Of a stretch of 64,000 nt of DNA, positions 19,020-46,492 are shown one piece after another. How positions within the stretch are numbered: position 1 is the first letter of the stretch; each line of letters begins with the position of its first letter. Position numbers and translations under genes: made by a program. The notes under the pieces are model-generated. The model saw only the letters and a program-made list of their open reading frames with translations. It was not told the DNA's origin and searched no databases. The stretch covers positions 386,001-450,000 of the forward strand of contig NZ_CP054840.1 in the NCBI RefSeq assembly GCF_013363755.1, in the 5' to 3' direction. This stretch comes from Comamonas antarctica (lineage in GTDB: Bacteria > Pseudomonadota > Gammaproteobacteria > Burkholderiales > Burkholderiaceae_C).

Positions 19020-21443
19020 TCAGTACAGCTCCACCTGCAGGTCCTCGACCTGAGCAGACGGCGTGTCGCGCGCGGTGAGATAGACCAGGCCCTTGAGCGC
19101 AAGCGCCGGCACAGGCACGACTTCGGTGAACGTGAGCTCATCTGCGCTGCAGTCGACCAGCCGGTAGTAGGGCTCACCCGCATCCCAGTTGATCTGTGCG
19201 ACAAAATGCCCGCCGCCGGACGCGCAACGCAGGTGCACTGTGTAGCGCGCCTGCGAAGCGCGCTGCGTGGGCACCGACGCCAGTATCTGGGGTTGCGGCG
19301 TGGCCGTGATGCCGGCCGCGGAAACCGGCAGCAGCAGTTGCTCGGCACGGGCACGGCGCATATCGAACAGCGGGCGGTAGGGGGTGGGAACCGACCCGAC
19401 ACGGTACAGCGTGAAGCTGCCTTCGCGCGCAAGTGCCATGCCATGGCTGCTCAGATACGCGTGCAGCCAGGCCAAAGGCGTGCCGTGCTTCCTGGGCGGC
19501 GCCATGTTCAGGATGATGAAATCGACTTTCTCATCATCGAGAAAGCGTGCCACGTCGGCTGTGCCGGCAATGGCGGCAAAGCGTGCCTCGCGGGCCGGCG
19601 CATACCAGTTGAGGTAGAGCGCCGTACCGTGCAGCGTGGCGCCCGAAGGCGCATCTGGGGAATACAGCACGCGCGCGCCCGGCGCGCGGCGGTTGACTTC
19701 GGCGGTCAGCACGGCTGCCGGCGCATACAGGCGCGTCAGCTGCTCCTGGCCGGCGGCCGTGTAGGCAGTCTGCGCCGCTGACTGCATGCGCCAGGAAGTG
19801 TCCTGGTAGAAATACAGGTTCAGGGCGGTGCACAGCAGCACCAGCACGGCCGGCACCGCAGGCCACCAGCGTGCCCTGCCGATGAACAGCGCCGCCAGCA
19901 GCACTCCGGCGATCGGCATGACCGGAAACAGGTAGCGCCAATACTGCGTCGCCGAGAACATGATCAGGCCAAAGCCCAGCAGCGGCAGCAATGCCAGGCG
20001 AAAGCCGGCAGGAACGCTCCGGCGCCAGGCTGCGGCAATGGCCAGCGGCAGCAGCACCAGGAACTGCCAGCCCGCGGTGAAGTCGCCGCTTTCGAAGAAG
20101 CGGGAAGTTTCAAAGAAGGCGCGCACATAGCTGCGCAGGCTGAAACCATGTATCCACTGCGTGTCGCTGAAGTTGCTCGCAGGCGCGAACGGCGAATGGA
20201 ACACGGCGTTGTACAGCGGGAAAACCGGGTTGCCGGTGAGCCGCCAGGCAACGCCGTAGGAGTGCAATGCCACAAAGCCCAGGAGCAACAGCAACAGCAG
20301 CGCCGGCCAGCGCAGGCGCGGCAGCGCGCCTGGAACGTCGGATCGCAGTTGCCACCAGCGCAGCGCCAGAGTCGCGAGCAGCATCACTCCGAGCACGGCG
20401 CCCGGCAGCTTGATGGCGGCGCACAGCGCGGCGCTGGCCAGCACGCCCAGCACATGCTGGCCGCGCCAGCCGCCACGCGCCTCGAGCGCAAGGCGCAAGC
20501 CGGCGAGCGCGACCACGGCCAGCAGCAATTCGGTCTGCAAGGAAAACAGCAGGTTGCCCAGCATCGGAGTGCTGGCCATCAATACTACGAGCAGCCATTG
20601 CACCCAGGACGGAGTACCCAGGCGCTGCAGCGTGCGCGCCATCAGGGCCAGCAGCGCCAGTGCCAGCGCGAGGTTCAACGCGCTACGCGCATCCGCATCA
20701 GCCATCAGCGACAAGCCGGCATGCAGCAAGTCGGTGGCAAACGGAGCGGTTGCCCAGATCTGGCTGCCGACATCGAACAACGCGCGGCGCTCGTCCAGCA
20801 GCTCGGTCCATAGGCGCAAGTGCAGCGCGTGGTCGTCATAGCTCAGGCTGGGGAAACTGGCCCAGCGCAGAGACCAGCCGATCACTGCGATACCTGCTGT
20901 CCAGGCCCACAGGGGAATCGACCGCATCCATCCGTGCAGGTCCGATGCGCGGGTGCGCAGATCGCTCCAGACCCCGGCCGGCAGCAGCGGCAGCCATAGC
21001 AATGGCAACAGGCCCAGGCCCAGGTACAGGCCGCGGACATTGATGGGGAAATGCAGCATCGCTCCCCAGACTGCGAGCCAGATGCTGGCACCCAGCAGCA
21101 CTGCCTCGGTGGCGCTCGCGGCACCCGCTGGTGGCTTCGAGCGCACGTGGTGCAGCAGCGCCATGCCCAGCGACCATGCGCTCAGGCCGCCGGCGGCGAC
21201 GATGGCGGCCGGACCGGTGCCGACACCGACCACCAGCCAGACCAGCATCAGGCACAGCAGCGCCAGGTGGGCGAAGCCGGGCAGCAGAACCGCCAGCAGG
21301 CCGCCACACAGCGCTACGCCGACGGGCCATGTCAGGCCGTCGCTCACCATCGCATCCAGCATGGCAGAGCTGTCGAGCAGATAAAGCGGTGCAGCCAGTG
21401 CCAGCAGGCCAGCCGCCAGTGATGCGGGGATCTTGGGACTCAT
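19020..21443 (-). CDS. Large polytopic membrane protein, probable GT-C glycosyltransferase
   Basis: An 807-residue protein with roughly 12-14 hydrophobic segments and a C-terminal soluble region (about 600-807). After several membrane segments an acidic motif YDDHAL (202-207) lies at the start of an extracytoplasmic loop. This is the usual place of the catalytic acid pair in GT-C enzymes such as ArnT and protein mannosyltransferases. It is the last gene of the minus-strand locus, 48 nt after a GtrA-type gene and a GtrB-type gene. In phage and O-antigen cassettes the third gene of such a trio is the type-specific transferase that uses the flipped lipid-linked sugar. That role fits here but the sugar is unknown. 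Confidence 0.75.
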   Translation of the reverse strand: MSPKIPASLAAGLLALAAPLYLLDSSAMLDAMVSDGLTWPVGVALCGGLLAVLLPGFAHLALLCLMLVWLVVGVGTGPAAIVAAGGLSAWSLGMALLHHVRSKPPAGAASATEAVLLGASIWLAVWGAMLHFPINVRGLYLGLGLLPLLWLPLLPAGVWSDLRTRASDLHGWMRSIPLWAWTAGIAVIGWSLRWASFPSLSYDDHALHLRLWTELLDERRALFDVGSQIWATAPFATDLLHAGLSLMADADARSALNLALALALLALMARTLQRLGTPSWVQWLLVVLMASTPMLGNLLFSLQTELLLAVVALAGLRLALEARGGWRGQHVLGVLASAALCAAIKLPGAVLGVMLLATLALRWWQLRSDVPGALPRLRWPALLLLLLLGFVALHSYGVAWRLTGNPVFPLYNAVFHSPFAPASNFSDTQWIHGFSLRSYVRAFFETSRFFESGDFTAGWQFLVLLPLAIAAAWRRSVPAGFRLALLPLLGFGLIMFSATQYWRYLFPVMPIAGVLLAALFIGRARWWPAVPAVLVLLCTALNLYFYQDTSWRMQSAAQTAYTAAGQEQLTRLYAPAAVLTAEVNRRAPGARVLYSPDAPSGATLHGTALYLNWYAPAREARFAAIAGTADVARFLDDEKVDFIILNMAPPRKHGTPLAWLHAYLSSHGMALAREGSFTLYRVGSVPTPYRPLFDMRRARAEQLLLPVSAAGITATPQPQILASVPTQRASQARYTVHLRCASGGGHFVAQINWDAGEPYYRLVDCSADELTFTEVVPVPALALKGLVYLTARDTPSAQVEDLQVELY

Positions 21444-21491
21444 CAGTCAGGTTCTCGCAGAAACATTAGGGGCCGGCGTACCGGCCGCTCA

Positions 21492-21854
21492 TCACCGGTA
21501 GACCCAGTGCTTTCCCAGCAGATAGCCATTGATGGCAACGAAGGGCAGCGAGACGATCTTTCCAGCCAGGGGCATATCCAGCCAGGCATGGAACAGCGAT
21601 ACGACAAGAAGCGTCAGCGCGTAGTTGGCAAGCACCAGCACCAGGTAGCGCGCCAGTGCGCGGTGCGAGTAGCCGGCCCGGAATGTGACATGGGCATGCA
21701 GGAGGAAGTTGACGGCCAGCCCGGCAACGAAGCCGGCGGTGGTGGCGACCATGTAGTGGGCGCCAAGCCGGCTGAGCAATTGCATCAGTCCGATATCGAT
21801 CAGTGCGCAGGCCACGCCTACGCCGATGTAAACGGCAAACTGGCGCATGGCCAT
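21492..21854 (-). CDS. GtrA-family membrane protein
   Basis: A 120-residue protein with four predicted membrane helices and the family pattern: an N-terminal FAVYIGVGVACALIDIG, a middle VNFLLHAHVTF (the usual NF...R/HxxTF block) and a C-terminal W. GtrA proteins are thought to flip undecaprenyl-phosphate-linked sugars. The ATG at 21854 overlaps the TGA of the upstream GtrB-type gene (TGATG), so the two are coupled. A second ATG two codons later (21848) is possible. Confidence 0.88.
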   Translation of the reverse strand: MAMRQFAVYIGVGVACALIDIGLMQLLSRLGAHYMVATTAGFVAGLAVNFLLHAHVTFRAGYSHRALARYLVLVLANYALTLLVVSLFHAWLDMPLAGKIVSLPFVAINGYLLGKHWVYR

Positions 21855-22828
21855 CAACCCGGCCGGCGTGCCAGGCGGGTATGGATGGGGCGCCGCGGCA
21901 CGGCGGCAATGTCATACGACATGAACGCCAGGATCAGCTGCAGGCCCATCAGCGCCGGCAAGGCGGCCAGCATGACCGTGCCGGCGGGCGTGGACAGCCC
22001 CAGATGGGTGGAGTGGCTCCAGTGATAACCGCCATAGGCGAGACCGAAGGCGAGAAACATGACGCCCAGAGGCAGTTCCAGCGACGCCAGCGACATGTCG
22101 CGCAGATAGTAGTTGTAGAAGATCCGTTTGAAGAAATTGCGCAGATGCTTCACCAGGAACTCGCCGGCAATCTTGGAGATCTTCAGGTTGCTGACCTCGT
22201 CGCCATACTTCGCATCCATGGGAATATCCACCACCACAGCCCGCAGCGTGTTGAGGCGGAACAGCATATCCGTCTCAAAGAAATAACGGCGGCTTATCTT
22301 GCCGAAAGGCAGGTGGCGCGCCGCGTTGGCGTGGATGGCGGTATATCCATTGGTGGGATCAAACAAATTCCAGTAGCCCGACGAGAGCTTGCACATCAAT
22401 GACAGCACCGCATTGCCGAAAAGCCGCATCTTCGGCATCGCGCGGATATTTTCCAGATCGAAGAACCGGTTGCCTTTGGTGTAGTCGGCCTCGCCCTCCA
22501 GGATCGGCGCGACGAAATCGCCAATCAACGCCGGGTCCATCTGGCCATCGCCGTCGACCTTGACCAGCACCTGCATGCCGTCGGCAATTGCCGCCTGATA
22601 GCCGGTCATGACCGCACCGCCCACACCCTGGTTCTGTGCATGCCGCAGCACCACGACGCGAGGATCCTGGCAGTGGGCCGCGACGAAATCACCCGACTGG
22701 TCGGGGCAGCAATCATCCACCACATAGATGCGGGTGACCTCAGGTCCGATGGCCGCCAGGACTTCCAGGATATGGGCGCGCACCTTGTAACTCGGGATGA
22801 TGACGGCGATATTCTGCGGAGTTTTCAT
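21854..22828 (-). CDS. GtrB-like polyprenyl-phosphate glycosyltransferase
   Basis: A 324-residue GT2 enzyme with a cytosolic catalytic domain (VIIPSYK at 9-15, VVDDCCPD and the VDGDGQMDP metal site) followed by two C-terminal membrane helices (about 236-300). Such proteins load a sugar onto undecaprenyl phosphate for later use on the periplasmic side. Its neighbours GtrA and the GT-C-like protein complete the usual three-gene gtr arrangement. The start at 22828 (MKTPQNIAVIIPSYK) lacks a strong Shine-Dalgarno; the 175-nt gap upstream is GC-rich and contains a hairpin that may separate it from the transport operon. Confidence 0.9.
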   Translation of the reverse strand: MKTPQNIAVIIPSYKVRAHILEVLAAIGPEVTRIYVVDDCCPDQSGDFVAAHCQDPRVVVLRHAQNQGVGGAVMTGYQAAIADGMQVLVKVDGDGQMDPALIGDFVAPILEGEADYTKGNRFFDLENIRAMPKMRLFGNAVLSLMCKLSSGYWNLFDPTNGYTAIHANAARHLPFGKISRRYFFETDMLFRLNTLRAVVVDIPMDAKYGDEVSNLKISKIAGEFLVKHLRNFFKRIFYNYYLRDMSLASLELPLGVMFLAFGLAYGGYHWSHSTHLGLSTPAGTVMLAALPALMGLQLILAFMSYDIAAVPRRPIHTRLARRPG

Positions 22829-22958
22829 GGGGTGAAGGAAAAAGGGGCGCAGAGCGGCGCAAACGGTGCGTGCGGCGGGCGCGGGGCGCTGTGCAACCCC
22901 GGTTCCGTACCGCAGGCATTATGTGAATCAAGGCCTTGCCGGATGACAGGGGATTTTA

Positions 22959-23007
22959 CTGAATCGCCGCAATACGCAGAGCCCAGTCAGCGCCGGCGGT
23001 GATTCAG
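22959..23007 (-). terminator. Long hairpin across the end of the fusion gene
   Basis: Arms CTGAATCGCCGC (22959-22970) and GCGGTGATTCAG (22996-23007) pair over 12 positions with one G-T wobble, around a 25-nt loop. The right arm includes the stop codon of the 1010-residue gene. There is no T-run, so it is not a classic intrinsic terminator. It may stall transcription or protect the 3' end of the upstream transcript before the gtr-type genes. Confidence 0.45.
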
Positions 23008-26000
23008 GGCCGATAGGAATGCGGTTTCCATGTCCCCCACTTCTTCTCGTAGATCGCCTTGTTGCGCTCGACCAGCGCGCGCCGCTTCTCGTCGTTCATC
23101 TTGTTGAAGGATGCCGACAGATGGTGGTGCACGAACACATCCTCGGCGCAGGCAATCTGCAGGCCTTCGGCTTCGACCTTGCGGCAGTAGTCGTCGTCCT
23201 CGAAGAAGCCCAGGCCATAGTCTTCGCTGATGGCGCCGCAGCGCTCGTAGGTCGAGCGCGGCAGGATCGTGCAGAAGAACGCGACGTTGTGCATCGGGTA
23301 GCGTTCGCCCATGTGGGCCAGCGTGTAGTTCAGCGCCGTGGCCGGCATGTGGGCCAGGTCGGGATAGCTGATCTCGATGCGCGCCTCGTTGCCGATGTTG
23401 CCGGTCACCGGCCCGAGCAAGCCCAGCGCAGGCTCGCGCTCGAAGTGGCGCAGCAGCGTCAGCACCCAGCCGGGGGTGACCACGGTATCGTTGTTCAGCA
23501 CCACCAGGTAGTCGCCGGTGGCAATTTCCAAGCCGACGTTGTTGCCCGCGGCGAAGCCCAGGTTTTCGCTGTTGAGCACCATGCGCACTTCGGGATGGCG
23601 CTGGCCGAACGCTTCGAGATACGCCGGTGTGTCGTCCGTCGAGGCGTTGTCGACGACGATGACCTCGAGGTTGGGATAGTCGCTGCGCTTGAGCACGCTG
23701 TCGAGGCAGGCACGCGTCAGGTCCAGGTTGTTGAAGGTGAGAATGATGACGCTGACGCGCGGCAGCTGGATTTTCGCCAGGCCCTCGAGCAACTGCTCAC
23801 CCCGGTGGCTCCAGGTCTGCTCGACCGCGAAGCTGCGCCTTGCGGCGGCGTTGCGCGCAGCTTCTTCACCCGACTCGCGCAGCGCGGCGCCGGTCAGCGC
23901 GATGAAGGCCTCGGTGGTCGCGGCACATCCCACCAGATCGCCGAACTGGCTGACTTCGGGCAGGTCGACGCAGACCACGGGCTTGCCTGCGGCGAGGTAT
24001 TCGTAGACCTTGACGGGATTCGTTGCCAGGGTCAGCGGAATTACCTGGAAGGGCAACAGGCAGACATCGAAGGCATAGAGGTAATACGGCAGCCTGGCGT
24101 AAGGCACTTCGCCGGTGAACTCGACATTGGGCAGGTCCGCGAGCTGTTTTTGCGCTCCGACCGTATCGTTGCCCACCAGCAGCACCAGGCAGTCGGGATG
24201 GGCCAGCGCGACGGCGCGCAGCAGTTCCAGGTCGAACCACTCGGCGATCGCACCGTAGTAGCCGATGATCTTGCGGCCCTTCGCATCCACATAGGTCTGC
24301 GCAGGCGGCTCGGAGAAATGCGCGTACTCGGCGGCATTGCGGACCATGGCCACGCTGGGGTTGTAGCCGCGCGCGAAGTCCTCGAGCCAGGACGAGGTCA
24401 CGGTGACCAGGTCGGCACCGGCCAGCATTTGCTTTTCGATCGCCATGAGCTTCTCGGGCACATTGCCGAAGCCTTCATGGTGGTCCATGCAGTCGTAGAT
24501 GCGATAGGTGTTCGGCAAGCGCGTGACCAGCGGATACCAGTAGGCATGCTGCACCAGGGAAAGGCTTGAAAGCGCGCCGAAATCGTGGATCACCTGCGCC
24601 ATGCTCTGTTGCAGCTGTGCCAGGGCGGCGTCGGACGGCGCATCGAAATAGATGGCCGGAGCGCCCTTGACATGCAGCTTGATCTGGTAGAGCGCAGCCG
24701 CGCCCGGCAGCTGCTCCAGCTGATAGCCGGGTTCGTCGGCATCGATGAAATGGTTGCTGAAGTAGAACACCCTGCGGCCGGCATCGGCAAGGCTGCGCGC
24801 GATGTGTTGCGGGCGCTGGATGCGAAAGCTCCAATCGATCACGGCAAACACGAAGACATCGCGTTCACTGTCGACGAACTGCTTGTCGGCCATCTGCAGC
24901 ACGGCCGCACTGAGGGGCCGCTGCTGCGGCGCCTGCGGCTGCACGGATGCGCGCAGCGGCCGGATGATGGAGAAGAACTGCTCGCGCAGGCGTTGCTTGG
25001 TGGCCATCGACAGCGGCAGGGCGCGCAGCGTGCGGCGGGCAAAACCCAGCGCCGTTTTCTTCAGCGCATAGCGGACCGGACGCTTGCCGATGCGGTCGGC
25101 CCAGTCGGAAATCTGGAACAGCGTGGCATTCAGGCTGGCCATCTGGCCCTCGCGTGCGCAGGCCTCGCGCTGAAGACTGGAAATCTGCTGGTCGCGTTCG
25201 GTCAGCGCCTGATGCAGTTGGGCAATCTGGGCATCGCGTTCGGCAAACACCTGACTGATCAGCGTGCTCTGCACCTCGATTTCGGCGGAGGCCGCAATCT
25301 GGCTGTCGCGTGCTGCCACCTGCGCGCGCAGCCAGGCCAGGGCGCCAGCGACGTCGTCGCGCCCCAGCTCGCAATCGGCCAGCGTCAGCTTGAGGGTGTC
25401 GACCCACTCGCCATCGGCATATACCAGGAAGATCTGCTCACCGCCCCACATCGTATCGGGCATCTGGCGGCAGTCGACCACGCGCGCCCAGACCAGGCGA
25501 AAGCCATTGCTCAAGGCCACGGGCACATTGCCCGGGAGGAAGGAATAGAAATGCTCGTCGATGCGCTCGAGTTCGCGGTAGGGCAGCGCCAGCACCACCG
25601 CCTTGCCGGCGCGCGTGCCCAATGCCTGCAGAACCTCCCAGGGACGGTGGAAATGTTCGAGCGTGTTCGAGGAGAAGACGATGTCGAAGCGCTCGGCATT
25701 GCCCTGCGACGGCTCCAGCCAGTTCTCGGCAACGAAGCGGATCGTCGGATAGCGGCCGGCGGCCTGCGCGATCGCGACTTCGGAGAAGTCGATGCCGGTC
25801 ACCTGCTGCGGGCCGACATGGCTGCCCAGCACATCGGTGCCGTCGCCCTGGGCGCAGCCCCAGTCGGCGAGCGTCAGGCCGCCGCGCCGCACCTGCTCGA
25901 TCAGCCATGGGGGCAGGTTTTCCATGGCCAGCCGCGCAAAGAAGCGCGATTGGCGCGGGCCTTGATGGGTTTCCCAATCGCTGGAAAAACGGCCGTCCCA

Positions 26001-26036
26001 ATAGCTGTCTGAATTGATGTCTGAACTGTTTGACAT
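23004..26036 (-). CDS. Methyltransferase / coiled coil / GT4 / GT2 fusion protein
   Basis: A 1010-residue cytosolic protein with four parts. First is a class I SAM-dependent methyltransferase (about 30-210) with motif I DWGCAQGDG (58-66), GIDFSE (81-86) and NTLEHF (124-129). Second is a heptad-like coiled coil (about 235-305) with repeated 'AERDAQIAQL'/'TERDQQISSL' units. Third is a GT4-like transferase (about 390-750) with NPVKVYEYLAAGKPVV. Fourth is a GT2 domain (about 759-1010) with VSVIILTFNN, VVDNASTDD, the LNNDT metal site and FFEDDDY. Its ATG directly follows the TAA of wzt with no gap. Methyltransferase plus coiled coil next to an extended Wzt recalls WbdD, which caps ABC-exported O-antigens and sets chain length. 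The extra GT domains are unusual. This role is inferred. Confidence 0.88.
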   Translation of the reverse strand: MSNSSDINSDSYWDGRFSSDWETHQGPRQSRFFARLAMENLPPWLIEQVRRGGLTLADWGCAQGDGTDVLGSHVGPQQVTGIDFSEVAIAQAAGRYPTIRFVAENWLEPSQGNAERFDIVFSSNTLEHFHRPWEVLQALGTRAGKAVVLALPYRELERIDEHFYSFLPGNVPVALSNGFRLVWARVVDCRQMPDTMWGGEQIFLVYADGEWVDTLKLTLADCELGRDDVAGALAWLRAQVAARDSQIAASAEIEVQSTLISQVFAERDAQIAQLHQALTERDQQISSLQREACAREGQMASLNATLFQISDWADRIGKRPVRYALKKTALGFARRTLRALPLSMATKQRLREQFFSIIRPLRASVQPQAPQQRPLSAAVLQMADKQFVDSERDVFVFAVIDWSFRIQRPQHIARSLADAGRRVFYFSNHFIDADEPGYQLEQLPGAAALYQIKLHVKGAPAIYFDAPSDAALAQLQQSMAQVIHDFGALSSLSLVQHAYWYPLVTRLPNTYRIYDCMDHHEGFGNVPEKLMAIEKQMLAGADLVTVTSSWLEDFARGYNPSVAMVRNAAEYAHFSEPPAQTYVDAKGRKIIGYYGAIAEWFDLELLRAVALAHPDCLVLLVGNDTVGAQKQLADLPNVEFTGEVPYARLPYYLYAFDVCLLPFQVIPLTLATNPVKVYEYLAAGKPVVCVDLPEVSQFGDLVGCAATTEAFIALTGAALRESGEEAARNAAARRSFAVEQTWSHRGEQLLEGLAKIQLPRVSVIILTFNNLDLTRACLDSVLKRSDYPNLEVIVVDNASTDDTPAYLEAFGQRHPEVRMVLNSENLGFAAGNNVGLEIATGDYLVVLNNDTVVTPGWVLTLLRHFEREPALGLLGPVTGNIGNEARIEISYPDLAHMPATALNYTLAHMGERYPMHNVAFFCTILPRSTYERCGAISEDYGLGFFEDDDYCRKVEAEGLQIACAEDVFVHHHLSASFNKMNDEKRRALVERNKAIYEKKWGTWKPHSYRP

Positions 26037-27371
26037 TTATGCCTCTTGCACCGATTGCTGTACCGCCGGCTGGAAGATTCCAAAGAACCGCTGATCGGCC
26101 AACGAGGAAAAATAATGCGCGCCCTCGAAATATTCGTAGTAATGGGCGACGTTGCTATGCTCGCGGTTCTCGACCGCGGCGACCAGCAGGTACTTTCCTG
26201 TAACCAGCTGGTTGTCCATGCGAAAGCGCACCCGGAAGCATTCGCTCCCGGGCAGTGCCGTGCCTGCGTCATGGGTGGTGGACACCAGCAGGTCGGTTCC
26301 CTTGAGATCCTTGATGGAGAAGGCCAGGCTCAGATGCTCGCGCGGAATGTCCGGGGGGATGCGCACATCGATGAGGATCTCCATGGGTTCCCCCCAGCCG
26401 ATGGTGTCGCGGCGCATGCCGTTGGCATCGCACACCGAGGCCGCCAGGATCACGCCGCGGTGCGACCCCCAGTGCGTGACCGGGCGCGCATCCAGGCCAT
26501 GCGCCGTGGGCGCGCCGGCAGGCGTTGCCGCAGCGTCGCCGCTGTGCGCCACGCTGCCGGCCGGGGCTTCGGCGGCCTTGGCCTGGCCTTGTTCCGCCGC
26601 GACCTCGTCGCGGAACATCATCTCCATGTACCGGCCGGAGATCGGAAAAACGTCGCCGTCCTCCACCAGCTTGCCGCTGTCGAGCCAGATCGCGCGCTGG
26701 CACAGCGTGCGCACCGAGCCGACGTCATGGCTGACGAACAGGATGGTGGCGCCACGCTCCTGGATCTCCTTGATGCGGCGCATGCACTTGGCAACGAAGC
26801 GCGCGTCACCCACGGACAGGGCTTCGTCCACGATCAGGATCTCGGGATCGACATGGATGGCAATCGAGAACGCCAGCCGGGCGTGCATGCCGCTGGAGTA
26901 GGTCTTGACGGGTTGGTCGATGAAGTCGCCCAGCTCGGAAAAGGCCAGCACTTCGTTCATGCGTGCCTGCATGCTTTCCTGCGGAAAACCCAGGATGGCC
27001 GCCGTCAGCAGCACGTTCTCGCGCCCGGTGAACTCGGTATTGAAGCCCGCGCCCAGTTCCAGCAGTGCCGCCACGCGGCCGTGCGTCGACACCGTGCCTT
27101 GCGTCGGCGCGACGGTGCCGCAGATGATCTGCAGCAGGGTGGACTTGCCCGAGCCGTTGCGGCCGATGATGCCGACGGTCTCGCCCTTTTTGACCTCGAA
27201 GCTCACATCGCGCAATGCCCAGAATTCGCGGAAATAGCGCCGTGCCGGCTTGCCGATGAGACGCAGCAGGCGGGGCACGATGAACTGCTTGAGGCGATCG
27301 CGTGGCGCGGCGTAGATCTCGTAGCACTTGCTCAGATGGCTGACGCGGATGGCGACATCGTTAGAGGACAT
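26037..27371 (-). CDS. wzt: ABC transporter ATPase with C-terminal substrate-binding domain (Wzt)
   Basis: The ATPase of an O-antigen or related polysaccharide exporter. In its 444 residues the Walker A is GRNGSGKST (70-78), the signature YSSGMHARL (158-166), Walker B ILIVDEALSV (178-187) and the H-loop SHD (214-216). The gate helix region AALLELGAGF is typical of polysaccharide ABCs. An Ala-rich linker (about 255-295) leads to a beta-rich C-terminal domain (about 300-440) like those that bind the capped chain end in Wzt proteins. The start at 27371 overlaps wzm by 11 nt; the frame is open 12 codons further. Confidence 0.95.
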   Translation of the reverse strand: MSSNDVAIRVSHLSKCYEIYAAPRDRLKQFIVPRLLRLIGKPARRYFREFWALRDVSFEVKKGETVGIIGRNGSGKSTLLQIICGTVAPTQGTVSTHGRVAALLELGAGFNTEFTGRENVLLTAAILGFPQESMQARMNEVLAFSELGDFIDQPVKTYSSGMHARLAFSIAIHVDPEILIVDEALSVGDARFVAKCMRRIKEIQERGATILFVSHDVGSVRTLCQRAIWLDSGKLVEDGDVFPISGRYMEMMFRDEVAAEQGQAKAAEAPAGSVAHSGDAAATPAGAPTAHGLDARPVTHWGSHRGVILAASVCDANGMRRDTIGWGEPMEILIDVRIPPDIPREHLSLAFSIKDLKGTDLLVSTTHDAGTALPGSECFRVRFRMDNQLVTGKYLLVAAVENREHSNVAHYYEYFEGAHYFSSLADQRFFGIFQPAVQQSVQEA

Positions 27372-28212
27372 CGGAAAAGCCCTTTCTGGTTTTCTGGAAC
27401 CAGGCAAAACCGGCCCATGCCACGAGGATGGCGCCCAGCATGTACAGCGCCCATCCGGTCCAATTCGGCAAGTGCCCCCAGATCAGCACTTCGCGCATCT
27501 GTTCGATGATGAAGGTCAAGGGGTTGGCCATGAGCCAGGGGCGGTATTTTTCCGGCAGCGCGGTGATCGGATAGAACACCGGTGCGAGGAACATCATCAC
27601 CATGGTGAGGATGCCGATGGTCTGGCCGACATCGCGCAGGAACACGCCCATCGAGGCAAACATCCACGCCAGACCCAGCGTCAGAAGCACCAGCGGCAGC
27701 ACCACCAGCGGTGCCAGCAGCACGGTCCAATGCAGGTGGCCGTTGAAGAGAAAAAACGCGACCAGCAGCACGCAGAGGCTTACGAAACTGTGGAACAGCG
27801 CCGCACCCATGCTGACCACGGGCAGTATCTCCAGCGGAAAGACGACCTTCTTGACGTAATTCACGTTGGACAGGATCAGGCCGGGCGAGCGGTTGAGCAC
27901 TTCTGCAAACAGGCCGTGCACGATCATGCCGACAAACAGCACCACGGCGAACTGGGTGCGGCTTTCGTCGCCGCCGATGCCCCAGCGGGCCTTGAAGACG
28001 AACGAAAACACGAAGGTGTAGACCGTCAGCATGAACACCGGATTGAAGAACGACCAGGCCAGGCCCATGACGGAGCCCTTGTAGCGGCCGACCACTTCAC
28101 GCCGTGTCATCTGCACGATCAGCGCCCGGTGGCGCCACAGGCTTGCTGCCAGCGCGGGCAGGGAAGCCGGCGCTGGCGCATGGGGGTCGATGGTCTGGGA
28201 AGGGGAGGTCAT
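27361..28212 (-). CDS. wzm: ABC transporter permease for polysaccharide export (Wzm)
   Basis: A 283-residue ABC-2 type permease with six membrane segments. The N-terminal amphipathic region (RREVVGRYKGSVMGLAWSFFNP) and the NVNYVKKVVFPLEILP loop are characteristic of O-antigen and teichoic acid exporters (Wzm/TagG). It works with the Wzt protein, whose gene starts before wzm ends. The start MTSPSQTIDP at 28212 has GGAA eight bases upstream; an ATG three codons earlier is also possible. A 63-nt gap separates it from the upstream glycosyltransferase gene. Confidence 0.95.
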   Translation of the reverse strand: MTSPSQTIDPHAPAPASLPALAASLWRHRALIVQMTRREVVGRYKGSVMGLAWSFFNPVFMLTVYTFVFSFVFKARWGIGGDESRTQFAVVLFVGMIVHGLFAEVLNRSPGLILSNVNYVKKVVFPLEILPVVSMGAALFHSFVSLCVLLVAFFLFNGHLHWTVLLAPLVVLPLVLLTLGLAWMFASMGVFLRDVGQTIGILTMVMMFLAPVFYPITALPEKYRPWLMANPLTFIIEQMREVLIWGHLPNWTGWALYMLGAILVAWAGFAWFQKTRKGFSDVL

Positions 28213-28275
28213 GCAATGCATTCCATGGGGTTCAGGGGGTAGCCTGGCGCAGCTGCGAGGCACGCCGGGCGGCGT

Positions 28276-29379
28276 TCACGGCAGCAGGTTCGCGGCATCG
28301 AAGCGAGCCTTCCAGCCATTGCGGGCCACGAATTCCAGGGCGCCGGCACAGTCGTTGTCCAGCATCAGCGCCGATTCGGCCAGTGCGCCGATATCCTGCA
28401 GCGCTGCGCTGATGAACGTGCCGGGCGCGTCCGCGCGAAACGCCATCTCCCCGAACTGGGTGGACATCACCGGCAGATTGAGTGCGCGGTATTCATAGAA
28501 CTTGATGGGATCGACCGAAGCGGTGAGGTCGTTCCTGAGAAACGGAATCAGGCCCACGTCGAAACCGCGCATCGCTTCCAGGGCCGCCGCGTGGTGGCAG
28601 CCCGGCAGCATTTCAATGTTGGACGGCAACTGCGTCGGCGCCGCCTGGAACACCGGACCGATCAGCCTGACCACATCGCGCGGCCGCGCCCGGGCCAGCG
28701 CGATGACCCAGTCCCAGTCGAACCAGGAAGCAATCGTGCCGACATAGCCGAACACCTTGGGCTGGGCCTGCAGGTCGCGCGCGCGCGGCGCGGGCATCAT
28801 GCTGTCGTCCAGGGCATTGGCGACGAATTGCAGATCGGGGCGCAATTCGCGCCAGTGCTGCTGCAAACGCGTGCTGGTGACCCATAAGGTGTCGGCCTGG
28901 CGCGCCAGCTGTTCCTCGCGGCGCGCCATGGCGCGGCGCGAGAACCCGTTGTAGAACGCTGGAAATTCGTCCATCGCGTCGTAGAGCGAACGCGCGTTCT
29001 TCAGCCGCTTGAGCACCGCCAGCGCCAACACGCTGGGCTTGCCCGCAGCCACCAGCGTGTCATGGCCTTCGGCAAAGCGCGCCAGTGCGTCGAGGGTGGG
29101 GCGCCAGAAGAAGGCGTTGATCGCGCCGGAGCCGGGCAGGGGCTCGATGGGAAGCGCCAGCGGCCTGAGCACGCGCAGCCAGGGCGGTGGTGCCTGCGTT
29201 GCGAGGTTCTGGGACGGGCGCGGGCGGCGCAGGTCCGCAAGCCTTGGCAGGCGCGTGGGGTAAGGGTCCACCCAGAGCACATCGCTGCCGGTGCGGGCAT
29301 GAAACCAGTCGACGAACTTCTGCGGGCGCTGCGCGAAGCTGGCCCATGGCACCGGCGACAGGTAGATGAGGCGTGTCAA
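28276..29379 (-). CDS. GT4-like glycosyltransferase
   Basis: A 367-residue GT-B transferase. It has an N-terminal half with SPVPWASFAQRPQK and YDAMDEFPAF, and a C-terminal half with VFGYVGTIASWFDWDW and the DPIKFYEYRALNLPV acceptor/nucleotide-sugar motif. It is clearly related to residues 390-750 of the neighbouring fusion protein, which carries RIQRPQ, YDCMDHHEGF, IIGYYGAIAEWFD and NPVKVYEYLAAGKPV in the same order. The TTG start at 29379 overlaps the wecB stop as TTGA, indicating coupled translation; no better start was seen. It probably adds a sugar during O-antigen assembly. Confidence 0.85.
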   Translation of the reverse strand: MTRLIYLSPVPWASFAQRPQKFVDWFHARTGSDVLWVDPYPTRLPRLADLRRPRPSQNLATQAPPPWLRVLRPLALPIEPLPGSGAINAFFWRPTLDALARFAEGHDTLVAAGKPSVLALAVLKRLKNARSLYDAMDEFPAFYNGFSRRAMARREEQLARQADTLWVTSTRLQQHWRELRPDLQFVANALDDSMMPAPRARDLQAQPKVFGYVGTIASWFDWDWVIALARARPRDVVRLIGPVFQAAPTQLPSNIEMLPGCHHAAALEAMRGFDVGLIPFLRNDLTASVDPIKFYEYRALNLPVMSTQFGEMAFRADAPGTFISAALQDIGALAESALMLDNDCAGALEFVARNGWKARFDAANLLP

Positions 29380-30488
29380 GAAAAGTGTTCCCGCAGGGTC
29401 TTGACGATGCGTCCCGAGGCCAGTCCGTCGCCATAGGGCGAGATCCCGCGTGCCATGTCGCGGTAGGCGGCCTCGTCGTCGAGCAGCCGCTGGGCTTCGG
29501 TCACGATGCGCTCGTAATTCGGCCCCACCAGCTTGACCACGCCCTGTTCGACGGCTTCGGGACGTTCCGTTTCCTCGCGCAGCACCAGCACCGGCTTGCC
29601 CAGCGCCGGAGCCTCTTCCTGCACGCCGCCGGAGTCGCTGATGATCAGATAGGCTTGCTTCATGGCCGCGACGAAAGGGGCGTAATCCAGTGGCTCGCAC
29701 AGGCGGATGTTCGGAGAATCGCCGAGCACTTCATGCGCGACATCCTTCACATTCGGGTTCGGATGCACCGGATAGAGGAATTGCACGTCGGGGTTGTTGG
29801 CGGCCAGCGTCTGCAGGGCGCGGCAGATCTCGCGGAAAGGCGCGCCGAAATTCTCGCGGCGGTGCGAGGTGATCAGCACCAGGCGCTTTTGCGGATCGAG
29901 GTCGATGCCGATCTGCAGGTCCTTGGCCGCGGTCATCAGCAGCGCGTCGATCACGGTATTGCCGGTGACCAGGATGTCCTTGTCCGGCATGCCTTCACGC
30001 AGCAGGTTCTGGCGCGAGCCTTCGGTCGGCGCGAAGTGCCAGCGTGCGAGCTTGCCGGCAATCACGCGATTGGCTTCCTCGGGGAAAGGATTTTGCATGT
30101 CCCAGGTACGCAACCCCGCTTCGACATGGCCGATGGGAATCCGGTGGTAGAAGCAGGCCAGCGCCACCGTCATCACGGTCGTGGTATCGCCTTGCACCAG
30201 CACCACGTCCGGTTTCTCGTTGAGCAGCACCTGGTCCATCTCCAGCAGCAGACGGGCGGTCAAGGTGGTCAGCGCCTGGTTCGGGCGCATGATGTCCAGG
30301 TCGATGTCGGGCGTGATCCCGAAGAAGTTGAGCACCTGGTCGAGCATGTTGCGGTGCTGCGCCGTCGCCAGTACGCGCACCTGGGCCCAGGGTTCGTTTT
30401 TCAGCGCCAGGATCACCGGAGCCATCTTGATGGCTTCGGGGCGTGTTCCGACCACGCACAAAACACTCTTTTTCTGCACCATTTGCAT
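29376..30488 (-). CDS. wecB: UDP-N-acetylglucosamine 2-epimerase (non-hydrolysing)
   Basis: Interconverts UDP-GlcNAc and UDP-ManNAc. The 370-residue enzyme has the GTRPEAIKMAP head, the QGDTTTVM block, HRRENFG and SDSGGVQEEA, all family markers. It is the first gene of the minus-strand polysaccharide operon. No ManNAc dehydrogenase (wecC) is in the window, so the product may be used as ManNAc or further modified elsewhere. Two nearby ATGs (30488 and 30482) are possible; AAGGA fits the second better, at 9 nt spacing. Transcription probably starts in the AT-rich region just upstream. Confidence 0.95.
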   Translation of the reverse strand: MQMVQKKSVLCVVGTRPEAIKMAPVILALKNEPWAQVRVLATAQHRNMLDQVLNFFGITPDIDLDIMRPNQALTTLTARLLLEMDQVLLNEKPDVVLVQGDTTTVMTVALACFYHRIPIGHVEAGLRTWDMQNPFPEEANRVIAGKLARWHFAPTEGSRQNLLREGMPDKDILVTGNTVIDALLMTAAKDLQIGIDLDPQKRLVLITSHRRENFGAPFREICRALQTLAANNPDVQFLYPVHPNPNVKDVAHEVLGDSPNIRLCEPLDYAPFVAAMKQAYLIISDSGGVQEEAPALGKPVLVLREETERPEAVEQGVVKLVGPNYERIVTEAQRLLDDEAAYRDMARGISPYGDGLASGRIVKTLREHFS

Positions 30489-41227: not shown

Positions 41228-42289
41228 ATGATTCTCGTCACAGGCGGCGCAGGTTTTATCGGTGCCAATTTCGTACTCGACTGGCTTGCCACCAACGAAG
41301 AGCCCGTCGTCAACATCGACAAACTGACTTATGCCGGCAATCTGCATAATCTGGCGAGCCTGAAGGGCGACGCGCGGCATGTCTTCGTGCAAGGCGACAT
41401 CGGCGACAGCGCGCTGCTGTCGCGGCTGCTGCAGGAACACCGTCCGCGTGCGGTGGTGAATTTCGCCGCCGAAAGCCATGTCGATCGATCCATCCACGGC
41501 CCCGAGGATTTCATCCAGACCAATGTGGTCGGTACCTTCCGGCTGCTTGAGTCCGTGCGTGGCTACTGGAATGCGCTGCCCGACGCGGAAAAACAGGGCT
41601 TTCGTTTTCTGCATGTCTCCACCGACGAGGTCTACGGCTCGCTCGCTGCCGACGCGCCGGCGTTCACCGAAGACCATCTCTACGAGCCCAACAGCCCGTA
41701 TTCCGCGAGCAAGGCCGCCAGCGACCACCTGGTGCGCGCCTGGCACCACACCTACGGGCTGCCGGTGCTGACCACCAACTGCAGCAACAATTACGGCCCG
41801 CTGCACTTCCCGGAAAAGCTCATCCCGCTGATGATCGTCAACGCGCTGGCTGGCAAACCGCTGCCGATCTACGGCGACGGCATGCAGGTGCGCGACTGGC
41901 TTTACGTCAAGGACCATTGCAGCGCCATCCGCCGCGTGCTCGAGGGGGGACGCCTGGGCGAGACCTACAACGTCGGCGGCTGGAACGAGAAGCCCAATGT
42001 CGAGATCGTCAACACCGTCTGCGCCCTGCTCGACGAACTGCGTCCGCGTGCCGACGGCCAGAGCTATGCTGGCCAGATCACCTATGTCAAGGACCGGCCG
42101 GGCCATGACCGCCGCTATGCGATCGACGCGCGCAAGCTCGAGCGCGAGCTGGGCTGGAAGCCGGCCGAGACCTTCGAGTCGGGCATCCGCAAGACCGTGC
42201 AGTGGTACCTGGAGAATCCCGAATGGGTGGCGCAGGTGCAAAGCGGCGCCTACCGGGATTGGGTGCAGACCCAATACGCCAGCGCATGA
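41228..42289 (+). CDS. rfbB: dTDP-glucose 4,6-dehydratase
   Basis: First modifying step of dTDP-L-rhamnose synthesis. The 353-residue SDR enzyme has the NAD motif TGGAGFIG (5-12), [12 protein letters not shown], the STDEVYGSL catalytic block and [11 protein letters not shown], with CSNNYGP near the middle. The start at 41228 lacks a clear Shine-Dalgarno; the frame is open 49 codons upstream without similarity. The TGA stop overlaps the rfbD start as ATGA. It leads the operon rfbB-rfbD-rfbA-rfbC-GT2-wecA. Confidence 0.96.
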
Positions 42290-43176
42290 AAATCGTTCTT
42301 CTGGGCCCCACCGGCCAGGTGGGCTGGGAACTGCAACGCAGCCTGGCCGTGCTGGGCGACGTCGTTCTCCTGGGCCGTCAGGGCACGCCGCACGCGGCCG
42401 ATTTCAGCGATCCGCAGGCCGTGGCGCGCAGCGTGCGTGCGCTGCGCCCCGATGTGATCGTCAACGCCGCCGCGCATACGGCGGTGGACAAGGCCGAGGC
42501 TGAGCCTGAACTGGCGCGCCTGCTCAATGCCGCGACGCCCGGTTTGCTGGCGCGCGAAGCCGCAGCCCTGGACGCGTTGCTGGTGCACTACAGCACCGAT
42601 TACGTATTCGATGGCAGCGGCAGCGCCGCGCGCAGCGAAGACGCCGAGACGGCGCCGCTGTCGGTCTATGGCCGCACCAAGCTCGAAGGCGAGCGCGCCA
42701 TTGCCGAGGCTGGCTGCAGGCATCTGATCTTTCGCACCAGTTGGGTCTATGCCGCCCGCGGCGGCAACTTCGCCAAGACCATGCTGCGCCTAGCGCAGGA
42801 GCGCGAGCGCCTTACCGTCATTGACGACCAATGGGGCGCGCCCACCGGGGCCGACCTGATTGCCGACGTCACCGCCCATGCCATCCGGCATGTGGCGCAT
42901 TCCCCGCAGGACCTGGGCCTGTACCACCTGGTGGCCTCGGGCGAGACCTGCTGGCACGCCTATGCGCAGTTCGTGATCGAGACCGCGCGCGCGTTGCGCC
43001 CCGAGCTGGCGCTGCGCGTCAGCGAGATCGCGCCCGTGCCCACCAGCGCTTTCCCGACCCCGGCCCGGCGGCCCTTGAATTCGCGCCTGGACACGACGCG
43101 GGTGCAGGACCGTTTCGGCCTGCACCTGCCCGACTGGCGCCAGGGAGTGGTCCGCATGCTCCAAGAAACTCTTTGA
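42286..43176 (+). CDS. rfbD: dTDP-4-dehydrorhamnose reductase
   Basis: Last step of dTDP-L-rhamnose synthesis. The 296-residue protein has the [10 protein letters not shown] nucleotide motif, [20 protein letters not shown] and YGRTKLEGE. It overlaps rfbB by ATGA and ends 7 nt before rfbA. Confidence 0.96.
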
Positions 43177-43183
43177 AGATCCC

Positions 43184-44071
43184 ATGACACAACGCAAAGG
43201 CATCATCCTGGCCGGGGGCTCGGGCACCCGGCTGCACCCGGCGACACTGGCCATCAGCAAGCAACTGCTGCCGGTCTACGACAAGCCGATGATCTACTAC
43301 CCGCTGAGCACGCTGATGCTCGCCGGCATCCGCGAGATCCTGATCATCAGCACGCCCCAGGACACGCCGCGTTTCGAGCAACTGCTTGGCGACGGCAGCC
43401 AGTGGGGCCTGCGCCTCGAGTACGCAGTGCAGCCCAGCCCCGATGGCCTGGCCCAGGCGTTCCTCATCGGCGAGCAGTTCCTGGACGGTGCGCCCAGCGC
43501 GCTAGTGCTGGGCGACAACATCTTCTATGGCCACGACTTCCAGCATCTGCTGGCGCGTGCCCGGGACCGCGAGCAGGGCGCAAGCGTGTTTGCCTACCAT
43601 GTGCATGATCCCGAGCGCTACGGCGTGGCCGAGTTCGATGCTTCGGGCAGGGTGCTGTCGCTCGAGGAAAAGCCGGCGCAGCCCAAGAGCAACTATGCGG
43701 TGACCGGCCTGTATTTCTACGATGGCCAGGTGGTCGAGATGGCCAGGCGCCTCAAGCCCTCGGCACGCGGCGAACTCGAGATCACCGACCTGAACCGCAT
43801 GTATCTGGAGCAGGGCCAGCTGCAGGTCGAGATCATGGGCCGCGGCTATGCCTGGCTCGATACCGGCACGCATGAAAGCCTGCTCGAAGCCGGCCAGTTC
43901 ATTGCCACGCTGGAAAACCGCCAGGGCCTCAAGGTCGCCTGTCCCGAAGAACTGGCTTACCGCCAGGGCTGGATCGATGCGAAGCAACTGGAAAGCCTGG
44001 GCCAGGCCATGGCCAAGAACGGCTATGGGCAGTACCTGCTGCGGCTGCTGAAGGAAAAGGTGAACGCATGA
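43184..44071 (+). CDS. rfbA: Glucose-1-phosphate thymidylyltransferase
   Basis: Makes dTDP-glucose from dTTP and glucose 1-phosphate. The 295-residue protein has the [13 protein letters not shown] head, [29 protein letters not shown] and [19 protein letters not shown]. Its stop overlaps the rfbC start as ATGA. Confidence 0.97.
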
Positions 44072-44616
44072 AGGCCACGCCCTTGGCAATTCCCGATGTC
44101 ATCCTGTTCGAACCCAAGGTGTTTGGCGACGAACGCGGGTTCTTCTTCGAAAGCTTCAGCCAGCAGCGTTTCGACGACGCCGTGGGCCGGCATTACGAGT
44201 TCGTGCAGGACAACCACAGCCGCAGTTCCAAGGGCGTGCTGCGCGGCCTGCACTATCAAATGCCGCCGCACGCGCAGGGCAAGCTGGTGCGGGTGGTCGA
44301 AGGTGCGGTCTTCGACGTCGCGGTGGATATCCGCCGCAGTTCGCCTAGCTTTGGCCAGTGGGTCGGCGCGCATCTGAGCGCCGAGAACCACCACCAGCTC
44401 TGGGTGCCGCCGGGGTTTGCCCACGGATTCCTGGTGCTGAGCGACAGCGCGCAGTTCCTGTACAAGACCACGAGCTACTACGCGCCGGCTTCGGAGCGAA
44501 GCATCCTGTGGAACGATCCCCAGCTGGCCATCGAGTGGCCTGTCGAGGCCGCGCCCAGCCTGTCCGCGAAGGATGCGGTGGCGCCGAGCTTTGCCGCTGC
44601 CGAAGTGTTTGCATGA
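44068..44616 (+). CDS. rfbC: dTDP-4-dehydrorhamnose 3,5-epimerase
   Basis: A 182-residue cupin epimerase. It shows the [11 protein letters not shown] segment, the catalytic histidine block [35 protein letters not shown] and the [13 protein letters not shown] block. The start overlaps rfbA and the stop overlaps the next GT2 gene, both as ATGA. It completes the four-gene dTDP-rhamnose set. Confidence 0.96.
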
Positions 44617-45392
44617 ACTCCGCCCCTGCCGGGGATGGACTGGTCGTTTCCATCGTGAGCCATGGCCATGCACCGCAGGTTGCCGCCCTGCTGTGCCAGT
44701 TGGCCGACTGCTGCGGCGCGAGCGTGGCGCGGGTCGTGCTGACCCTGAACGTGCCTGAGCCGGAAGCGGCTTTTGCCGCGCCGCCGGGCGGCTGGCCGTT
44801 TGCCTTGCAGATCACGCGCAATGCGGCTCCCCTGGGTTTCGGTGCCAACCACAACCGGGCACTTGCGGGTGCAAGCGAGCGCTTCGTCTGCGTGCTCAAT
44901 CCCGATGTCGTGCTGCTGCCGGCCGAGGGCGATGTCATGGCCGCGCTCTGCCAGGCCGCAGCCGGCGCTGGGGTGGGCATTGCCTATCCAGTGCAGGTCG
45001 ACGCCGCGGGTGTGGAGCAAGACAGCCGGCGCGAGTTGACCACGCCGCTGAGTCTGTTGCAGCGCCGGCTGCTGGGCCGCAAGCCGCGGCGTTGCGACTG
45101 GGTGAACGCCGCTTGTGTGGTTTTGCCGGCGCCGGTCTGGCATGCGGTCGCGGGTTTTGATGAAAGCTTTTTCATGTATTGCGAAGATGTCGACCTGAGC
45201 CTGCGGGTGCAGCTCGGTGGTTGGAAGCTGGCCGCGACGCCGGTGCGCATCGTGCATGCGGGACAGCGCGCCAGCGGCCGCCAATGGCAGCATTTCAAGT
45301 GGCATGTACGCAGCTTGTGGACCTTGTGGCAGTCTCCGGCCTATGCAAAGTCCCTTCGTCGCTTGCGTCATCAGGGACATATCGCTCCATGA
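44613..45392 (+). CDS. GT2 glycosyltransferase, possible rhamnosyltransferase
   Basis: A 259-residue GT2 enzyme with VVSIVSHGHAPQV, the FGANHNRAL motif, the VLNPDVVL metal site and a late FDESFFMYCEDVDLSLR block typical of the WbbL-like group. It lies between rfbC and a WecA-family gene, overlapping both by ATGA. A likely job is transfer of rhamnose to the lipid-linked GlcNAc made by the next gene's product. The acceptor and sugar are inferred from context only. Confidence 0.85.
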   Translation: MNSAPAGDGLVVSIVSHGHAPQVAALLCQLADCCGASVARVVLTLNVPEPEAAFAAPPGGWPFALQITRNAAPLGFGANHNRALAGASERFVCVLNPDVVLLPAEGDVMAALCQAAAGAGVGIAYPVQVDAAGVEQDSRRELTTPLSLLQRRLLGRKPRRCDWVNAACVVLPAPVWHAVAGFDESFFMYCEDVDLSLRVQLGGWKLAATPVRIVHAGQRASGRQWQHFKWHVRSLWTLWQSPAYAKSLRRLRHQGHIAP

Positions 45393-46492
45393 TCTGGTTG
45401 TCCGTCACTGCGTTTTTCATCGCCCTGGTTTCGGGCGGCATGATCATCCGCTGGTCGCGCCGCCTGCGTGTGGTCTACAGCGAAGACATGCCCCAGCGCT
45501 TCCACCGCGGCAATGTGCCGCGCATCGGCGGGCTGGCGATGCTGGTGGCGCTGCTGCTGGCCTGGGGCGCGGGCATGGTCTCGACCGCGTTCTTTGGCGA
45601 CGGCTCGGTGCTGCGCATGCAGGCCTGGGTCGGATGGTTCATCGTGGCCATCCTGCCGGCAGTCGTCGGCGGGCTGGCGGAAGATCTCACCCAGCGGCTG
45701 TCGGTGCGCTACCGGCTGCTGCTGACCGGGCTCACCGGCGTGCTGGGCATCTGGCTGCTCGATCTCGCGGTGCCGCGGCTGGACCTGCCCTGGATCGACA
45801 GCCTGCTGGCCTGGGCGCCCTGGGTGGGCTTCGGCATCGCGCTGCTGGCGATTGCGGGCCTGCCGCATGCGTTCAACATCATCGACGGCTACAACGGACT
45901 GGCGGGCATGGTCGCGATCATCGTCTGCCTGGCGCTGGCCCATGTCTGCCTGCAGGTCGGCGACCGCACGCTGGCCGCGCTGCTGCTCAGCACCGCCGCG
46001 GCCACGGCCGGGTTCCTGATCTGGAACTATCCACGCGGCATGCTGTTTGCGGGCGACGGCGGCGCCTATATCTGGGGCGTGGTGATTGCGTTCTCCAGCA
46101 TCCTGCTGGTGCAGCGCCATGCGCTGGTCTCGCCCTGGTTCCCGATGCTGCTGTTGATCTATCCGGTCTGGGAGACGGTGTTCTCGGTCTACCGCAAGCT
46201 GGCACGCGGCGATTCCCCGGGCATGGCGGATGCGCTGCATTTCCACCAGCTGGTCTACCGGCGCATCGTCTGGGGCGTGTTCCACGATGACGAGTCGCGC
46301 CAGATGCTGATGCGCAACAACCGCACCTCGCCCTATCTCTGGGCCTTCACGCTGCTCACGGTGCTGCCGGCCGTGCTGTTCTGGCGCAATACACCCGTGC
46401 TGATGGCGTTTTGCGCGCTGTTTATGATCGGCTACGTCTGCGCCTACCTGGCCATCGTGCGGTTCAAGGTGCCTGGCTGGCTGCAGAAGTGA
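45389..46492 (+). CDS. WecA/MraY-family polyprenyl-phosphate sugar-1-phosphate transferase
   Basis: A 367-residue membrane protein with about 10 helices. Conserved cytosolic motifs are GGLAEDLTQRL (95-105, the acid pair is E98-D99 rather than DD), NIIDGYNGLAG (163-173), GDGGAYIWG (222-230) and HFHQLVYRR (284-292). It probably starts O-antigen synthesis by linking HexNAc phosphate to undecaprenyl phosphate. The start overlaps the GT2 stop by ATGA. It is the last gene of the rfb operon. WecA itself is likely but related transferases with other sugars cannot be excluded. Confidence 0.9.
   Translation: MIWLSVTAFFIALVSGGMIIRWSRRLRVVYSEDMPQRFHRGNVPRIGGLAMLVALLLAWGAGMVSTAFFGDGSVLRMQAWVGWFIVAILPAVVGGLAEDLTQRLSVRYRLLLTGLTGVLGIWLLDLAVPRLDLPWIDSLLAWAPWVGFGIALLAIAGLPHAFNIIDGYNGLAGMVAIIVCLALAHVCLQVGDRTLAALLLSTAAATAGFLIWNYPRGMLFAGDGGAYIWGVVIAFSSILLVQRHALVSPWFPMLLLIYPVWETVFSVYRKLARGDSPGMADALHFHQLVYRRIVWGVFHDDESRQMLMRNNRTSPYLWAFTLLTVLPAVLFWRNTPVLMAFCALFMIGYVCAYLAIVRFKVPGWLQK

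Follow-up and report, generated by a model that had tools for sequence, protein, structure and literature searches.

Can a single protein chain build a surface polysaccharide, measure it and cap its end? This question is raised by a 1010-residue reading frame of Comamonas antarctica, located in a 64,000-nucleotide stretch of contig NZ_CP054840.1 (positions 386,001 to 450,000 of the forward strand), which was analyzed as a whole and is referred to here as the window. The frame joins a methyltransferase, a coiled coil and two glycosyltransferase (GT) modules, and lies beside wzt, which encodes the ATP-binding subunit of an ATP-binding cassette (ABC) exporter. We consider it rather probable that this fusion acts as a single-chain terminator, ruler and polymerase for a lipid-carrier polysaccharide exported by the adjacent Wzm/Wzt. 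The reading is supported by the domain order and its neighbors, an invariant S-adenosylmethionine (SAM) site, the variation of the linker, and the heptad and 14-residue periods of the coil. Further support comes from the pairing of the methyltransferase head with the C-terminal domain of Wzt (Wzt_C), a basic segment at a WbdD-like contact position, and nearby rml and WecA-like genes.

The fusion gene and its modules are as follows:

23004..26036, minus strand: fusion gene, 1010 residues, methyltransferase, coiled coil, GT4 and GT2 (one open frame, Pfam, AlphaFold2)
25392..26036, minus strand: class-I SAM methyltransferase head, residues 1-215, proposed chain terminator
25101..25373, minus strand: coiled coil, residues 222-312, proposed ruler (AlphaFold2 helices, pooled heptad periodicity, length variation in relatives)
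25119..25244, minus strand: three degenerate 14-residue units (AERD-QI-LH type), residues 265-306 (lag-14 identity)
24939..25085, minus strand: basic segment with amphipathic helix, residues 318-366, at the polymerase end of the coil (charge, hydrophobic moment)
23781..24860, minus strand: GT4-type (GT-B) glycosyltransferase module, residues 393-752 (Pfam, fold)
23007..23762, minus strand: GT2 (GT-A) glycosyltransferase module, residues 759-1010 (Pfam 109 bits, fold)

Modules of the fusion protein and their known counterparts

The open frame, the Pfam matches and the AlphaFold2 model confirm the four-part architecture beside wzt that the original prediction had described. A chance or assembly fusion is ruled out by the order of the modules, which is kept in 95 relatives. 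Searches of solved structures with the fusion modules returned generic methyltransferase and GT relatives only, and the fold matches of the head indicate a class-I methyltransferase, nothing narrower. WbdD was absent among the 60 of 92 structure matches listed and among the rows of a further search, which does not exclude a likeness; WsaE was likewise absent from the solved structures that came up. The SAM-site residues are invariant across 63 relatives, indicating that the head is under selection. No Pfam kinase family matches the fusion, and residues 215-390 are predicted by AlphaFold2 to be helices only, ruling out a methyltransferase-kinase of the WbdD type.

The coil measures about 94 residues between landmarks, and its helices were modeled with low confidence at residues 229-254 and 265-318. 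It includes the three degenerate 14-residue units listed above; this period is present in the protein, while no tandem repeat was detected at the DNA level in the coil of the query. The GT4 module resembles TuaH, yet its 95 bits fall well short of the equivalog cut-off of 550. GT4 enzymes usually carry an E-x7-E motif. In the fusion (window 24860-23781), E679 is invariant and the position eight before it is an invariant Ala671, so the motif is without its first Glu. The basic segment between coil and polymerase holds 13 lysines or arginines against one acidic residue (net charge in 63 relatives: median +10, 5 to 15), and its best helix ranks 4th of 993 windows by hydrophobic moment. Judged from these sequence properties, the segment is a possible membrane contact, and it matches the coil site at which WbdD contacts the membrane and its polymerase (PMC11231755).

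As described in the cited papers, several characterized systems resemble the fusion. The original prediction had held a chain that caps, measures and polymerizes to be unlike the model systems. The head-coil-polymerase order directly downstream of a wzt with Wzt_C does stand, as in characterized systems; the supposed departure from known biology does not, since terminator and polymerase already share one chain in WbbB, in Klebsiella O7 ORF6 and in WsaE (PMC9587256, PMC11231755, PMC2943079). In WbbB of Klebsiella O12 / Raoultella terrigena, an N-terminal transferase, a helical spacer and two polymerizing GTs form one chain; when the polymer has reached sufficient length, the transferase adds its terminal residue and thereby creates the epitope recognized by the carbohydrate-binding module (CBM) of the cognate exporter (PMC9587256, PMC11231755). 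By description, WbbB shares with the fusion the adjacent Wzm/Wzt and a single-chain build, in which a helical spacer sets an N-terminal module (the terminator of WbbB, the proposed terminator of the fusion) apart from two GTs at the C-terminal side, whereas its terminator is a GT99 3-deoxy-D-manno-octulosonic acid (Kdo) transferase rather than a methyltransferase, and its GTs belong to GT102/GT103 rather than GT4 and GT2.

ORF6 of Klebsiella O7 likewise combines, beside wzm/wzt, an N-terminal methyltransferase, a central coil and two C-terminal GTs (PMC11231755). Again by description, it differs in a kinase and CBM fold between methyltransferase and coil, where the fusion has no room for a kinase, and in carrying two GT2 modules instead of GT4 and GT2. 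WsaE of Geobacillus stearothermophilus, which makes an S-layer glycan, joins an N-terminal O-methyltransferase, producing a 2-O-methyl cap, to two rhamnosyltransferase domains, with wzm and wzt upstream in overlapping codons (PMC2943079, PMC3898925). Its description sets it apart from the fusion by the S-layer product and by mentioning no coil.

Two further systems resemble the head and coil only. WbdD of Escherichia coli O9a is a terminating methyltransferase on a ruler coil of about 20 nm (PMC5082667), but it has a kinase and no GT, with its polymerase WbdA separate, unlike the fusion. The MT protein of E. coli O101/O162 consists of a methyltransferase and a C-terminal coil, is needed for O-methylation and is a proposed ruler (PMC13168486); no kinase is mentioned in its description, as in the fusion, but it has no GT in the chain.

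From the computed patterns and by analogy with WbbB, O7 ORF6 and WbdD, we infer the following course. The polysaccharide would be assembled in the cytoplasm on a lipid carrier, with the C-terminal GT4 and GT2 modules adding the repeat unit, while the coil would oligomerize and keep the methyltransferase at a distance from both polymerase and membrane. Once the growing chain is sufficiently long, its non-reducing end would reach the methyltransferase and receive an O-methyl group, at which point extension would stop. Wzt_C would then bind the methylated end, and the chain would be exported by Wzm/Wzt. At a helix rise of 0.15 nm per residue, the roughly 94 residues of the coil, if they formed one straight helix, would extend over about 14 nm, compared with the 20 nm or so of WbdD.

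Coil length and periodicity among relatives

A protein search, which scored only the 7994 candidates sharing most words, yielded 1844 relatives at an E-value up to 0.001. The linker figures come from the best 120 of these, 95 of which had the three catalytic parts and a nearly complete head. Between head and GT4, the linker spans 129-393 residues (median 201, standard deviation (sd) 54.7; query 177), while the catalytic modules keep a fixed length, with 348-352 residues for GT4 (sd 0.9) and 249-253 for GT2 (sd 0.7). The coil alone ranges from 49 to 315 residues in 68 of 96 proteins, the other 28 having been dropped for want of a landmark; that of the query has 94. Separately, five relatives of 1194-1317 residues (P0037, P0038, P0044, P0053, P0118) carry about 200-300 extra residues past GT2, perhaps a third polymerase module.

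Pooled over 97 linkers, the hydrophobic power at period 3.5 reaches 4.70 against 1.00 ± 0.07, a heptad peak. A longer period is superimposed: in 112 linkers, lag-14 identity averages 0.217 and lag-28 identity 0.190, compared with 0.078 for shuffles, and lag-14 identity exceeds 0.25 in 31 of them. The longer period is also found in length differences between close relatives. More specifically, five proteins with GT4 modules 98-100% and heads 81-100% identical (P0009, P0010, P0011, P0012 and P0013) have linkers of 251, 251, 223, 181 and 167 residues, all differences being multiples of 14. The last two, both named Pseudomonas aeruginosa, have identical GT4 modules, heads 99% identical and coils one 14-residue unit apart, a difference that needs long reads, given that assembly can collapse repeats. 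Strict change by whole units was rejected as a general rule. It holds for this group and fails overall, since among 16 non-overlapping close pairs, 12 of which differ in coil length, the difference is a multiple of 7 in only three (p 0.24), these three also being multiples of 14 (p 0.049).

These data bear on a simpler view of the protein, in which terminator and polymerase share a chain, the coil is merely an oligomerizing linker, and chain length results from the ratios of the enzymes or from export, a control that has been suspected in WsaE. The predominance of differences other than whole heptads is what a neutral linker might show, and for WsaE, methylation in vitro does not depend on chain length (PMC2943079). 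The heptad period is nevertheless kept through all length change in the 97 linkers, and coils are proven rulers in WbdD and, according to PMC11231755, in O12 WbbB. We therefore regard a mere linker as unlikely, and a coil that acts as the ruler of the terminator and polymerase remains the preferred reading.

Association of the methyltransferase head with the exporter

The exporter genes lie directly upstream of the fusion:

26037..27407, minus strand: wzt, ATP-binding subunit, start uncertain, perhaps M13 (ABC_tran 87.6 bits, Wzt_C 69.6 bits; the nucleotide-binding domain (NBD) matches solved Wzt 8dku)
26073..26477, minus strand: Wzt_C domain, wzt residues 311-445, proposed cap reader (PF14524 69.6 bits, cut-off 30.4)
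27361..28263, minus strand: wzm, permease subunit (ABC2_membrane 83.3 bits)

A contig search returned 162 relatives, of which 80 were kept; together with the window, these hold 91 GT4-GT2 frames. A wzt lies on the same strand for 62 of them; in 54 cases it encodes at least 380 residues and is no more than 3,000 bases away. Counting a Wzt_C as window-type above 45 bits, we found it in 17/17 cases with the head in the frame and in 1/37 without. In this one locus (L063), an N gap splits the head off into a frame of its own; when the locus is counted as head-bearing, 18/18 loci with the head and 0/36 without it share the Wzt_C subfamily of the window. Three head loci were left unscored, one with a cut wzt whose Wzt_C matches (L010, 58%) and two with no wzt on the contig (L012, L077). 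The headless loci do have Wzt_C over the cut-off (9 of 10 scanned), but of other subfamilies. When the comparison is restricted to loci of similar NBD identity (55-62%) with a wzt shorter than 600 residues, the window-type Wzt_C is present in 9/9 loci with the head and 0/12 without.

A sample chosen by the head instead of the polymerase comprised nine loci besides our own, two already in the polymerase-anchored set and seven new. Window-type Wzt_C accompanies the head in three of the five new loci with a wzt (L110, L121, L124); two others (L125, L126) lack a wzt within 16 kb. Polymerases other than GT4-GT2 carry the head as well, and there too it comes with the window-type Wzt_C (L110, L124 and the second cluster of L054). 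In L120 it precedes a GT4-like module alone, and in L122, L125 and L126 it forms a head-coil protein without a GT, like the MT protein of E. coli O101.

In normalized bit scores (n=21), Wzt_C tracks the head with r 0.95 and the polymerase with r 0.24, in a set that includes three remote heads only 17-21% identical (L035, L045, L052). Aligned distances in a strict set (n=18) give 0.81 for head-Wzt_C, 0.83 for head-NBD, 0.69 for head-Wzm and 0.60 for head-GT4, with partial r of 0.30 (p 0.016) for Wzt_C given NBD and 0.46 for NBD given Wzt_C. Specific co-evolution of head and Wzt_C, suggested by the larger set, is thus not upheld by the aligned distances. Wzm, wzt and head travel together, the polymerase more loosely. 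The closest case in which Wzt demonstrably reads a methyl cap is Aquifex, where binding of a 3-O-methyl cap by the carbohydrate-binding domain of Wzt is proven (PMC9445017). In the solved structure of Aquifex Wzt, the Wzt_C part aligns only weakly with that of the window (20.7 bits).

Several observations weigh against a single-chain terminator, ruler and polymerase. The query alone gives a weak heptad signal along with its low-confidence modeled coil, and variation in linker length by itself fits a relaxed, unselected linker as well; methylation by WsaE is independent of chain length in vitro. On the exporter side, the pairing of head and Wzt_C is broken by L120, whose wzt of 262 residues has no Wzt_C, and by L122, which has a different Wzt_C. 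A fixed partnership between the head and the window-type subfamily is thereby ruled out. Moreover, because the head tracks the NBD as well as Wzt_C, joint inheritance of neighbors explains much of their association. The methyltransferase might even decorate in-chain sugars, or act on some acceptor that is not the growing end, and be fused for channeling only. The exporter without Wzt_C near the head of L120 would suit this, as would fold matches that indicate nothing narrower than a class-I methyltransferase. Yet the head is placed at the distal end of the coil, the position of all characterized terminators (PMC11231755), and is accompanied by one Wzt_C subfamily, making in-chain decoration quite improbable.

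Head diversity, genomic setting and meaning for the family

Closely related polymerases carry different heads. The polymerases of P0049, P0028 and P0064 are 100%, 99.8% and 99.2% identical to that of P0009 and lack its methyltransferase head; P0028 has a GT4-like head and P0049 another methyltransferase. These are metagenome proteins, and the exchange needs long reads, because assemblies can cross over at near-identical coil repeats. Named genomes show comparable exchange at greater distance. Twenty heads were scanned against families. Other methyltransferases were found in L018, L035, L049, L060, L061 and P0049, with L075 under the cut-off, and GT4 heads in L013, L046 and P0028. L057 has a GT17 plus methyltransferase head and L054 a Capsule_synth plus hexapeptide head. 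By eye, the head of L075 (L075:8462-10342) resembles an acyltransferase followed by a methyltransferase, the latter part scoring 20.1 bits in Pfam.

DUF4915 heads (90 bits each; L042:8642-9982, L043:8966-10432) sit on a coil-polymerase chain adjoining a wzt with Wzt_C and are candidate terminators. Sulfotransfer_3 matches fall under the cut-off of 27 (L048:8969-10429, 26.5 bits; L058:8609-10780, 22.8 bits), hinting at a sulfated chain end. Four heads matched no family (L062, L069, L081, L083), of which L062 and L081, grouping with L048 and L058, might share such an end, and L083 groups with L061. The window's own methyltransferase head is rare: the head profile A5 matched 2/398 genomes of the phylum, 5/250 of the family and 5/247 of the family of G439, counts that include the own or centre genome. 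A single head sequence matched 10/399 genomes of the order, nine besides our own at 29-43 bits.

Around the fusion and its exporter, the window holds the following further genes:

19020..21443, minus strand: 807-residue frame, by eye membrane-protein-like (no Pfam match)
21492..21857, minus strand: GtrA-type membrane protein (PF04138 68.6 bits)
21854..22828, minus strand: GT2 of the polyprenyl-phosphate sugar synthase type (PF00535 65.7 bits)
28276..29700, minus strand: GT4-like glycosyltransferase, start overextended, overlapping wecB (no Pfam match; TuaH-like 28 bits; 32% to part of the GT4 of the fusion)
29376..30488, minus strand: wecB, UDP-N-acetylglucosamine (UDP-GlcNAc) 2-epimerase (PF02350 410 bits)
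41231..44616, plus strand: rmlB, rmlD, rmlA, rmlC, dTDP-rhamnose supply (NCBIfam equivalogs over cut-off: TIGR01181, TIGR01214, TIGR01207, TIGR01221)
44613-45392, plus strand: weak GT2 (PF13641 24.2 bits, under cut-off)
45383-46492, plus strand: WecA-like glycosyl-1-phosphate transferase (PF00953 105 bits; TIGR02380 58.9 bits, under cut-off)

The minus-strand order is wecB-GT-wzm-wzt-fusion-GT2-gtrA, with the fusion abutting wzt; the 807-residue frame, gtrA and GT2 are possibly a periplasmic side-sugar system. Instead of a lipopolysaccharide O antigen, the polymer could be a surface glycan of another kind exported by an ABC system (capsule-like, S-layer-like or other). This is somewhat unlikely: it would accommodate a relative in the Bacillota, Desulforamulus putei (L006, 55% identity, with Wzt_C), and the S-layer product of WsaE, but rmlBDAC and the WecA-like gene, 11 kb from the fusion cluster, fit an O-antigen route. 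The alternative concerns the product and not the mechanism, and is compatible with a terminator, ruler and polymerase in one chain.

The polysaccharide cluster (window 19020-30488) sits between fabB and glyQ. This interval measures 72, about 5,360 and about 2,470 bases in three genomes of the same family (L104, L105, L106), and the cluster proteins have no match inside it there, an absence that fits an exchangeable island; fabB was matched at the set threshold in 4 of 12 genomes searched, our own included. In Acidovorax sp. CCYZU-2555 (L020), the cluster lies in identical order beside glyQ, with a coil-containing linker of 279 residues compared with 177 in the query (+102). Outside the window, the same genome encodes a second Wzt_C (G000:C1:4123017-4123388; L103, L107; 33.4 bits, cut-off 30.4) near sugar-nucleotide dehydratase-like genes, so that the genome likely has one more cluster for an ABC-exported glycan.

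A chain that unites terminator, ruler and polymerase is already in print. Judged by searches of the open-licence literature, the new elements are the methyltransferase-only GT4+GT2 layout of this family, without a kinase, the variable coil of 14-residue units, and the diversity of heads that one type of polymerase carries, all of them computed patterns rather than functions. Searches of that literature listed no paper on repeat-number control of coil rulers or on sulfotransferase terminators. Tentatively, these patterns may describe a plug-in family, in which one conserved GT4-GT2 polymerase takes interchangeable capping heads (the window-type methyltransferase, other methyltransferases, GT4, DUF4915, KpsS-like and perhaps sulfotransferase) via a 14-residue-unit coil of drifting number. 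Cap chemistry and chain length would shift by head swap and by gain or loss of repeats, and the reading domain of the exporter would change along with the head.

The fusion adds a methyltransferase-only, GT4+GT2 layout to a described mechanism, and the DUF4915 and sulfotransferase-like heads, which have no known cap chemistry, may point to terminators beyond those of the cited papers. If these readings are right, the family would provide natural sets of proteins with the same polymerase and different heads or coil lengths, and both the ruler rule and cap-gated export would become testable on natural variants.

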